Origin: a bacterium
GTDB taxonomy: Bacteria > UBA9089 > CG2-30-40-21 > SBAY01
Direction of reading: 5' to 3'
NCBI GenBank assembly: GCA_040757115.1
Contig: JBFLYA010000230.1
Coordinates: 1-5,841, forward strand
Length of the DNA stretch: 5,841 bases
This document shows positions 2,778 to 5,805 of the stretch, one piece after another. The notes beneath the pieces were generated by a model. The model searched no databases and was not told the origin of the DNA. It saw nothing but the letters and a program-made list of their open reading frames with translations. The position numbers were made by a program, and so were the translations under genes. The number at the start of each line of letters is the position of its first letter. Position 1 is the stretch's first letter.

Positions 2778-3983
2778 ATGATTACTCAAAAACAAATTAT
2801 TGAACAAGAAAAAAGATTTATGGTTCCTGTCTATAAACGCTTTCCAGTATGTTTTGTCAAAGGGAAAGGGATTAAAATCTGGGATATTAATGGTAAAGAA
2901 TACTTAGATTTCTTTGGACAGGGAGTAAATAGTATTGGACATAGCCATCCTCAGTTAGTCAGGGCGATTACAGAACAGGCAAATAACCTGATACATTTTT
3001 CCAATCTTTATTATACCATTCCACAGATAGAATTAGCTCAGAAATTGGCTTCAATATCCTTTGAAGGGAAGGTATTTTTTGCCAATAGTGGGGCGGAGGC
3101 AAATGAAGCCGCAATTAAACTTGCCAGAATATACGGTCAGGGTAAATATGAAATAATTACAATGACCGGCTCATTTCACGGAAGAACATTAGCTACCTTA
3201 ACAGCTACAGGTCAGGATAAAATACATAAAGGATTTGAGCCATTGGTTGAGGGTTTTAAGTATGCGCCATTCAATAACCTTGACGAGGTAGAAAAGGCTA
3301 TCACCCCATCTACCTGTGCCATCCTGATTGAACCAATTCAAGGAGAAGGAGGCGTTAATGTTGCAGACGAACAATATTTAAAAGGATTGCGTGCCTTGTG
3401 TGATGAACATAAAATATTGCTTATTTTAGACGAAGTCCAGACAGGAATTGGTCGAACAGGCAAGATGTTTGGCTACGAGCATTACGGGATTGTCCCGGAT
3501 ATTATCACCCTGGCGAAATGGCTGGGAAGTGGTCTGCCAATTGGGGCAATGGTCGCCAAACCTGAATTAGCTGACCTTTTTACACCAGGAACGCATGCCT
3601 CTACTTTCGGCGGAAATCCTTTAGTCTGTGCCGGAACATTAGCCGTGATTAATGCCATTATCGAAGAAAATCTGGTTGAAAATGCAAAAGAGATAGGTAA
3701 CTATCTCTTTAATCGACTATCTGAATTAAAAGATAAATATAGCTTCATAAAAGAGGTGCGAGGAAAAGGATTAATGATTGGTCTGGAGCTTGAGTTTCCA
3801 GGACAGCCAATTGTTAGTACCTGTCTGGAACAGGGATTAATTATTAATTGCACCGTAGAAAAGGTTTTGCGGTTACTACCACCATTAATTGTGACCAAAC
3901 AGGATGTAGATGAAGCCGTAAAAATACTGGATAAAGTGATTTTTTTCACCGCAGAGGCGCAGAGGACGCAGAGAAAAAATTAA
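2778..3983 (+). CDS. argD: Acetylornithine aminotransferase
   Basis: This PLP-dependent class-III aminotransferase (401 residues) converts N-acetylglutamate semialdehyde to N-acetylornithine in cytoplasmic arginine synthesis; ArgD enzymes may also serve the equivalent lysine step. Visible motifs are NSGAEANE (103-110, phosphate binding), GSFHGRT (131-137, with the aromatic that stacks on PLP), EPIQGEGG (185-192), DEVQTGIGRTG (218-228), the Schiff-base lysine Lys247 in LAKWLGSGLPIGA, STFGGNP (275-281), and Arg365 in VLRLLPPL for the substrate carboxylate. The N-terminus aligns with the family, which supports the ATG at 2778 although there is no Shine-Dalgarno sequence. The family match ends near residue 388 (ILDKVI); the tail FFTAEAQRTQRKN and the stop codon come from element C. 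Ornithine or GABA aminotransferase is the main alternative, but argF next door favours argD. Confidence 0.92.
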   Translation: MITQKQIIEQEKRFMVPVYKRFPVCFVKGKGIKIWDINGKEYLDFFGQGVNSIGHSHPQLVRAITEQANNLIHFSNLYYTIPQIELAQKLASISFEGKVFFANSGAEANEAAIKLARIYGQGKYEIITMTGSFHGRTLATLTATGQDKIHKGFEPLVEGFKYAPFNNLDEVEKAITPSTCAILIEPIQGEGGVNVADEQYLKGLRALCDEHKILLILDEVQTGIGRTGKMFGYEHYGIVPDIITLAKWLGSGLPIGAMVAKPELADLFTPGTHASTFGGNPLVCAGTLAVINAIIEENLVENAKEIGNYLFNRLSELKDKYSFIKEVRGKGLMIGLELEFPGQPIVSTCLEQGLIINCTVEKVLRLLPPLIVTKQDVDEAVKILDKVIFFTAEAQRTQRKN

Positions 3984-4134
3984 AATCTATTCACCAGAAA
4001 CAGAAATTTCCTTTTTTTGTGCATTTCGTGTCCTTCGTGCTCTTCGTGGTGAATAGTTACGAAAAACACAAAAAAAGATATTTTCCTCTCTGTTTCTCTG
4101 CGTCTCTGCGGTAAAGGATTACCCGAACGGTTAC
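3945..4134. repeat. Inverted-repeat element C, inserted at the argD 3' end
   Basis: The left arm, accgcagaggcgcagagg (3948-3965), begins inside the argD reading frame. The right arm, tctctgcgtctctgcggt (about 4095-4112), is followed by aaggattacccgaacggtta (4113-4132), which matches the right end of element B with two changes. The centre (4025-4053) is a 'cttcgtg' tract that reads on the other strand as ttcaccacgaagagcacgaa, a second well-known dispersed repeat nested in the first. The element supplies argD's stop (3981-3983) and fills nearly all of the 182-bp argD-argF gap. No terminator or promoter is obvious in it. Confidence 0.8.
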
Positions 4135-4151
4135 ATTTCTTTGTGGCAAAA

Positions 4152-5126: not shown

Positions 5127-5219
5127 TTTCAAGATTTTAAAATAAAGAATTGACCGAGAAGATCATAAAGGCATTCTACAAAGTTTATAATACCCTTGTA
5201 TATGGTTTTCTGGAGAAAC

Positions 5220-5359
5220 GCTCATGCCCACAGGGAGTGGGCACAAAGGAGGATGAAAATCGGGCATAGAGATTAGAGATTGGAGATTAGAGATTAGCAA
5301 GAGTGCAGGTTCTAATTCACTAATTCTCTAATCTCTAATTAACTATTTTCAGGGGAAAC
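5220..5359. repeat. Unknown small element, copy E1 (head, palindrome, tail)
   Basis: The unit is 140 bp and is directly followed by a second copy. Its head (5220-5260) contains a hairpin and ends acaaaggaggatgaaaat. The centre is an imperfect palindrome: AGAGATT-type repeats at 5267-5297 against CTAATCTCT-type repeats at 5312-5341. The tail is attttcaggggaaac (5345-5359). GAAAAT at the head's end (5255-5260) and ATTTTC (5345-5350) are inverted around the palindrome. The 14 bp just left of the unit (ttttctggagaaac, 5206-5219) resemble the tail, like a target duplication. It has no coding capacity and I do not recognise the family. Confidence 0.6.
5225..5243 (+). other. Head hairpin of E1
   Basis: TGCCCAC (5225-5231) pairs with GTGGGCA (5237-5243), a 7-bp stem with the loop AGGGA. 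It is followed at once by caaaggagg, which includes a full anti-16S complement (AAAGGAGG, 5245-5252). The matching hairpin in E2 has a compensatory base pair change. Confidence 0.6.
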
Positions 5360-5509
5360 GACCATGTCCACAGGGTGGACACAAAGGAGGATGAAAATAG
5401 TGGTAGGAGATAGAAGGTAGGAGGTAAGGAGATAGGCGTGAGGAGTGATGTTTTCTTTACTTTCTACTTTCTACTCTCTACTTTCTACTTCCTTATTTTC
5501 AGGAGAAAC
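5360..5509. repeat. Unknown small element, copy E2 (head, palindrome, tail)
   Basis: The second unit is 150 bp. Its head (5360-5398) is homologous to E1's, with two bases deleted in the hairpin loop region and compensated stem changes. Its tail, attttcaggagaaac (5495-5509), differs from E1's at one base. The palindrome between them is unrelated in sequence to E1's: GTAGGAGATAG-type purine repeats (5402-5436) against CTTTCTACTTTCTACT-type repeats (5456-5494). The C-terminal fragment of the GxxExxY gene begins immediately to the right. Confidence 0.6.
5365..5381 (+). other. Head hairpin of E2
   Basis: TGTCCAC (5365-5371) pairs with GTGGACA (5375-5381), a 7-bp stem with the loop AGG. Compared with E1, the third pair has changed from C-G to T-A on both sides, so the stem is kept. 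The downstream caaaggaggatgaaaat is identical to E1. Confidence 0.6.
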
Positions 5510-5805
5510 CTACAGATATTGAAGTTGGACTATTACTTAATTTTGGACCTAAACCCGAAGTCAAACGAAAGGCTTTTGATAATATGGGAAAATAATTATA
5601 CTCACCAACGGCACAAATTAAGATTTTTTAATAGGGACTCGATAGCCAGGTGATATAGGGTTTGTAAGATATATTACCATAAGTAAGTGTTAAAAAATGT
5701 CAACAATTATTGTTTTGAACCTTCAATTCAGACATAAAAAAGAAGATATAAGGGGTAATAAAAAAAAGATTATTATTTTGGATAAGGAAGATAGGGTTGA
5801 TAAAA

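Follow-up and report, generated by a model that had tools for sequence, protein, structure and literature searches.

A two-hairpin repeat family at translation-start motifs, with interchangeable palindromic payloads, as a probable mobile element

Two repeat units at positions 5206–5506 and their surroundings

The window analysed here is the whole of contig C230 (5,841 nucleotides), from a 4.3 Mb bacterial genome assembled in 462 contigs (G000). Two adjacent repeat units lie at positions 5206–5506, with all of their features on the plus strand. Both units have the same order of parts: GGRGA, the left end AACGNNCATG, a small hairpin, CACAAAGGAGG, ATGAAAA, a long simple-sequence palindrome, TTTTCA, and GGRGA again. 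The left junction (5206–5216), placed using a left-boundary consensus from the first units of arrays, consists of TTTTC-T and the Shine-Dalgarno (SD)-like target motif GGAGA. Unit 1 (5217–5356) runs from AACG to TTTTCA and its right-end motif GGGGA, and matches the head model R1 with 51.9 bits (E 4.4e-9). Its hairpin 1 (TGCCCAC-AGGGA-GTGGGCA, 5225–5243) is a predicted fold backed by covariation within the family; its hairpin 2 (5253–5351), backed by a fold test, extends from ATGAAAA through a payload of the “gagattagag” class (class 2, 10 copies) to TTTTCA. The GGGGA at 5352–5356 is at once the right end of unit 1 and the target of unit 2, which occupies 5357–5506, from AACG to TTTTCA and the right-end motif GGAGA (head model R1, 48.8 bits, E 1.6e-8). 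Hairpin 1 of unit 2 (TGTCCAC-AGG-GTGGACA, 5365–5381) is likewise a predicted fold, compensatory relative to that of unit 1, and hairpin 2 (5391–5501) carries a payload of the “gtaggagatag” class (class 0, 23 copies) between ATGAAAA and TTTTCA. The flank at the right end of unit 2 (5506–5595) appears to be the 3′ remnant of a GxxExxY/PDDEXK_3-like gene that has lost its start codon, based on a weak Pfam match (E 0.079, profile end 96–116).

A preliminary description of this DNA reported two units with a shared head, different palindromes and three copies of a tail sequence, and all of these are present where it placed them. The two heads also have the run CACAAAGGAGGATGAAAAT in common. TTTTC-GGRGAAAC occurs at 5206 (as TTTTCtGGAGAAAC, with one mismatch), 5346 and 5496, with spacings of 140 and 150 bp. 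The palindromes are mutually unrelated simple-sequence fold-backs, as had been described, and region 5200–5515 folds with a z-score of −7.9 relative to shuffled sequences. The treatment of head and tail as separate ends has to be revised: the tail GGRGAAAC is the start of the next unit's head, and the two form one junction. The proposal depended on the head recurring elsewhere in the genome, and many further copies were found; the 15-mer ATTTTCAGGRGAAAC, the reported tail that joins one unit to the next, alone has 77 copies in the 4.3 Mb genome, with none for the reversed control, far more than chance would give.

Other repeats and genes are found in the window. A second repeat type, at 1605–1860 and 3944–4135, has ends like GTAACCGTTCAGG...CCTGAACGGTTAC and a similar simple-sequence palindromic content (ccgcagagacgcagag ... 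ctctgcgtctctgcgg), and thus shares the style of payload with other ends. Another GA/CT palindrome (ggagatatggggattatggag ... ctccatatctccctttatctcc) lies at 429–527, with no head. Positions 3–405 encode a HicB-like and HicA-like toxin-antitoxin pair. Two open reading frames (ORFs), at 801–1565 and 1995–2657, encode paralogous coiled-coil proteins with near-identical C-terminal ends and no convincing Pfam match, and each is followed by ~80 bp of nearly identical DNA.

Unit anatomy, payloads and distribution

The architecture of the family was examined in 556 kb of G000 sequence around element copies, which contains 102 complete units with payloads of 26 classes, as defined by sequence. The full layout is GGRGA-AACGNNCATG-[small hairpin]-CACAAANGNNN-ATGAAAA-[long fold-back payload]-TTTTCA-GGRGA. 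Across 39 distinct 41-nt heads, hairpin 1 is paired in 91.9% of cells, as compared with 23–52% in slid controls, and has 52 double changes; shuffles gave 18.0 ± 4.6 and slid controls no more than 20. These figures show that pairing in hairpin 1 is constrained. The search pattern partly determined the conserved letters around the stem; the same letters, however, recur in copies detected independently of it with a covariance model. Any short ORF beginning with the ATG of the head would have its frame shifted by hairpin lengths that vary from 10 to 15, so it is not coding. In hairpin 2, ATGAAAA pairs with TTTTCA at the base in 71 of 78 distinct payloads. The mean payload energy is −34 kcal/mol, as compared with −20 kcal/mol for shuffled sequences, and 77 of the 78 fold better than the average of their own shuffles.

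Conserved ends with interchangeable palindromic centres, first noted for the two units in the window, are a general property of the family. Payload classes combine freely with many hairpin types: six or more payload classes occur with the commonest head hairpin, CCCACAGGGAGTGGG, and nine hairpin types with the commonest payload, gtaggagatag. The preliminary description suggested a centre that is replaced or regrown, for example by foldback replication. Regrowth is not supported, because the centres are shared, copied modules, the two commonest classes having 23 and 19 copies. Some payload sequences are also found outside recognised units, in a count that includes degenerate units missed by the pattern, and some are chimeric, joining halves of two palindromes. 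Heads may have exchanged payloads by capture or through recombination among arrays. Payloads in some other genomes are only ~20 nt long (e.g., ATGAAAATacccaaaagggATTTTC in locus L190), which implies a minimal element of ~70 bp.

The head pattern has 111 matches in G000, 69 in a second species of the same genus (G001), and none in 17 other genomes of the phylum that were searched. A scan of GTDB genomes extended the family well beyond this genus. The matches listed cover at least 120 stretches and include metagenome-assembled genomes (MAGs) named Bacteroidota, Deltaproteobacteria, Syntrophaceae, Nitrospirae, Planctomycetota, Chlamydiae and Cloacimonadota. As judged from these sequences, the family appears to span at least six phyla, including Nitrospirota. 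Among 395 genomes drawn from the phylum of one Nitrospira-named MAG, the covariance model was positive for 24. Such sporadic occurrence points to transfer or to recurrent loss. While errors in MAG binning could add false phyla, repeated copies within several genomes argue for real residence. No exact match was found among IMG/VR viral contigs, and no match to one consensus unit was found among plasmids. In a Bacteroidota MAG (JAKPGM), at loci L141, L156, L168 and L202, a second head type, GAAACCNYCATGATTGTGCTCAAGCACAAACAC..., adjoins the units.

Insertion sites and turnover between sister species

The position of units relative to genes is asymmetric. In this genus, 28 of 54 array right ends run into an ORF of at least 60 aa within 25 nt; none of 45 left ends, read outward, does so, and the figure for random positions is 13%. 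The GGRGA motif is the SD sequence in this genus. In other phyla, the head is flanked by RTGAA, not GGRGA, and for 27 of 70 terminal right ends the RTG is itself the start of an ORF of at least 60 aa. From their translations, we take the ORFs that follow right ends to include RimO (L143), LspA (L217) and PurN (L162). The bias towards gene starts recurs among copies found with the covariance model. On the left flank in these phyla, the two bases before GAAAC are mostly AT (A in 108 and T in 120 of 132 copies), indicating that the target there is ATGAA. Several loci retain a native ribosome-binding site before the left copy of the motif, as in AGGAGGTATTTAT followed by GAAACG (L248) and AAGGAATAAACAAAAT followed by GAAACG (L147). 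At these same two loci the left and right motifs differ, with ATGAA on the left and GTGAA on the right. Not every site is a gene start: the right end of unit 2 meets the headless GxxExxY-like remnant (itself a weak Pfam match), and in locus L218, with the frame interpreted by eye, a unit lies inside a gene. These non-start sites fit a sequence target combined with selection against harmful positions.

Additional evidence came from comparing G000 with G001, using the joined flanks of 11 sites and the downstream flanks of 18 sites. Most matched flanks are 93–100% identical. At five sites (C39, C134, C8, C142 and C314), both species have units, but the units are unlike; at C123, the single G000 unit corresponds to one of six in G001; and at C10, G001 has only a remnant. 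G001 has no units at C162, C16 and C326, but flanks at these sites are too diverged to prove a precise junction. The only clean empty site is C14, where the sequence in G001 is CTTCCTATTTTCAG joined to GAGAACCTATGCTT, with one copy of the motif, and that in G000 contains about five units in a block. A junction like TTTTCAGGRGAA is kept in place at 11 of 12 orthologous gene starts, with different content upstream. The mobility suggested in the preliminary description is thus borne out by site differences and one empty site between sister species.

Arrays have a single orientation, with units oriented with the downstream gene, and 52 of 73 are single units scattered over the genome. Of 29 pairs of neighbouring units, 3 share a payload class, as compared with 3.07 expected at random. 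Tandem duplication was rejected as the source of arrays, given that adjacent units are no more similar than random pairs. The unlikeness of neighbours indicates instead that arrays grow as further, dissimilar units insert at the junction motif.

Candidate mechanisms and relationship to known elements

The reading we favour, with a probability of roughly 0.6, is that the units are copies of a non-autonomous two-hairpin element that inserts 3′ of a translation-start motif and is moved in trans by an HUH/Y1-type enzyme. The parts of this model differ in strength. That the family is mobile and inserts at start motifs is very likely; the HUH/Y1 mechanism is proposed tentatively, because the lack of terminal inverted repeats, the hairpins near both ends and the fixed 5′ motif match the IS200/IS605 layout. 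In IS200/IS605 elements, a Y1 transposase reads single-stranded hairpins and inserts the element 3′ of a tetra- or pentanucleotide (PMC6006769, PMC7290912). By analogy, a unit would insert 3′ of GGRGA in this genus, or of RTGA(A) in other phyla, and would move as a single-stranded, hairpin-recognised intermediate processed by an HUH/Y1-type transposase supplied in trans. Its right end would be a copy of the start motif. With the target repeated in this way, the signal of the downstream gene would be preserved and the new right end could serve as the target for the next unit, such that units of different origin would accumulate into mosaic arrays. Alternatively, the motif may be a 4–5 bp target-site duplication and not the end of the element.

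Searches for the enzyme covered several candidate classes. Eight of 9 genomes contain Y1 transposase genes; 20 Y1 loci from 8 genomes showed no head within ~1.5 kb on either side, including searches with the covariance model with filters off, and one MAG (G034) carries elements with no Y1 match at all. No autonomous copy with these ends, or linked transposase, was found, and the suggestion that a transposase or reverse transcriptase gene might sit between the ends yielded no example. The only recurrent genes near heads encode response regulators, kinases and ABC proteins, as in a random sample. The tetranucleotide preceding hairpin 1 (NNCA) shows no shift when the target switches from RTGA to GGRGA, and the guide-target pairing of IS200/IS605 elements was not seen there, in a comparison limited to canonical pairing. 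IsrB has the target motif NTGA (PMC9581776), which prompted a search for OMEGA/HEARO (IscB, IsrB) components; omega RNA (RF02033) and the RRXRR protein were each found in 0 of 14 genomes, in a search where no positive control was detected, and this link was set aside. A long repeat that breaks at least 19 contigs immediately after the head hairpin was also considered as an autonomous copy. It was rejected because it also occurs outside heads (L084, L114, L100 and L102), which makes it a separate insertion sequence (IS) favouring the hairpin's CACAAAG. At 9 of the 10 loci examined, this multi-copy IS, with left end TCTTAYGGTRAAATGTCAAG..., has inserted immediately downstream of the CACAAAG in a head hairpin; its loci are at G000 contig ends (e.g., L079–L083 and L085–L088) and also include L084 and L114, and its interior is absent from those contigs.

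Several other models account for parts of these data. In a rather unlikely alternative, the units form a cassette-like system for translation-start sites, with a recombinase that reads the head hairpin, places exchangeable fold-back payloads beside SD sequences or start codons and rapidly remodels 5′ leaders in many phyla. Another unlikely model has a dedicated tyrosine-type site-specific recombinase excise units as circles and insert them at the junction motif, in effect a non-coding integron that lacks attC. Such a system would fit several observations: a single short motif recurs between the dissimilar units of an array, arrays have one orientation, gain or loss at C14 is block-wise, and the presumed recombination sites are folded, like those of attC. 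However, the attC core GTTRRRY was found at the junction of only 1 of 261 heads, no recombinase gene recurs near heads, and the 52 of 73 arrays that are dispersed single units have no platform. A quite improbable model holds that the units are immobile regulators or insulators in the RNA of 5′ leaders, with copies exchanged among arrays through homologous recombination and template switching. The strong RNA-like covariation of hairpin 1, the constant position before genes, the chimeric payloads and the right junctions retained at 11 of 12 orthologous sites can all be explained in this way. The many lone units between unrelated flanks, some of them in coding sequence or in a gene remnant (L218; 5506–5595), and the absence of a whole five-unit block from the orthologous C14 site in G001 argue against it. 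Recombination alone seeds no new sites, although it may explain some payload exchange.

Two further models retain mobility by other chemistry. A DDE-type miniature inverted-repeat transposable element (MITE), moving by cut-and-paste and duplicating a target of 4–6 bp (GGAGA or TGAA) rather than ending in the motif, would leave the same motif on both sides of each unit. The single motif copy at the clean empty site C14 fits both this model and the favoured one. Yet terminal inverted repeats are lacking, as the left end reads AACGNNCATG and the right end, read inward, TGAAAATA (TGAAAA); moreover, left and right motifs may disagree, as at L147 and L248, and a duplication that includes that base would require them to agree. 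A DDE origin is accordingly a poor candidate, less probable than the models above. Least probable of all is insertion via RNA, in which a structured RNA would be reverse-transcribed and inserted at translation-start motifs. Such a route is suggested by a structured element at gene starts that is oriented with the transcribed strand, and by the earlier foldback idea, but no reverse transcriptase is found among the recurring neighbours of heads, and units match no family in Rfam 15 beyond chance-level microRNA hits.

There are parallels with PATE and other ends-only IS200/IS605 elements, which, like the units, have a subterminal hairpin at each end and no terminal inverted repeats (PMC7290912, PMC6006769). 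Like PATE, the units are short and non-coding, and they probably insert 3′ of a short fixed sequence; a trans-acting transposase is a feature of PATE that here is presumed. Important differences are the translation-start motif as target, the dozens of unrelated fold-back payloads between the ends, and the mosaic arrays. A search for a parent IS with the same ends gave none, and for this reason the family resembles an ends-only IS200/IS605 element yet cannot be filed there. The very many small intergenic hairpins, the arrays and a suspected Y1 transposase are shared with REP, BIME and REPIN sequences and their RAYT (TnpAREP) proteins (PMC3733652, PMC8266576). Unlike REPs, which lie mainly after genes, the units lie before genes and are oriented with them. 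A GTAG-like or CGTC tag is also absent from the foot of the hairpin, which reads NNCA in both pattern-found copies (partly by construction) and model-found copies.

BOX elements have a modular boxA-boxB-boxC layout. Like the units described here, those of pneumococci are small intergenic repeats with conserved ends and a variable middle (PMC3049150); by description, rather than by sequence comparison, the units differ in having mutually unrelated middles and an end that is a start signal. The TAACTGA repeats of Beggiatoaceae also cluster immediately upstream of start codons, across bacteria that are only distantly related, but these are simple heptamer tandems with no hairpin or payload layout, and they overlap the ribosome-binding site without supplying an SD (PMC4679880). 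Integron cassette arrays similarly join unlike units at one folded site, but the units here have no attC core, ORFs or platform. The family is not REP, an integron cassette, a MITE with terminal inverted repeats or a known Rfam RNA. The preliminary description knew of no named family with this layout, and this agrees with the lack of an Rfam match or OMEGA components. No description was found in the open-access literature, and the family is apparently undescribed.

Small mobile repeats usually avoid or disrupt gene starts. This family seems to target the start signal itself and to return a copy of it, and can thereby multiply where most elements would be lost. The presence of the same head in at least six phyla suggests an old system that is either moving horizontally or very conserved, and the enzyme behind it can now be searched for. 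In sister species of this genus, the 5′ leaders of near-identical genes carry different units, which would speed the evolution of leader-based regulation.
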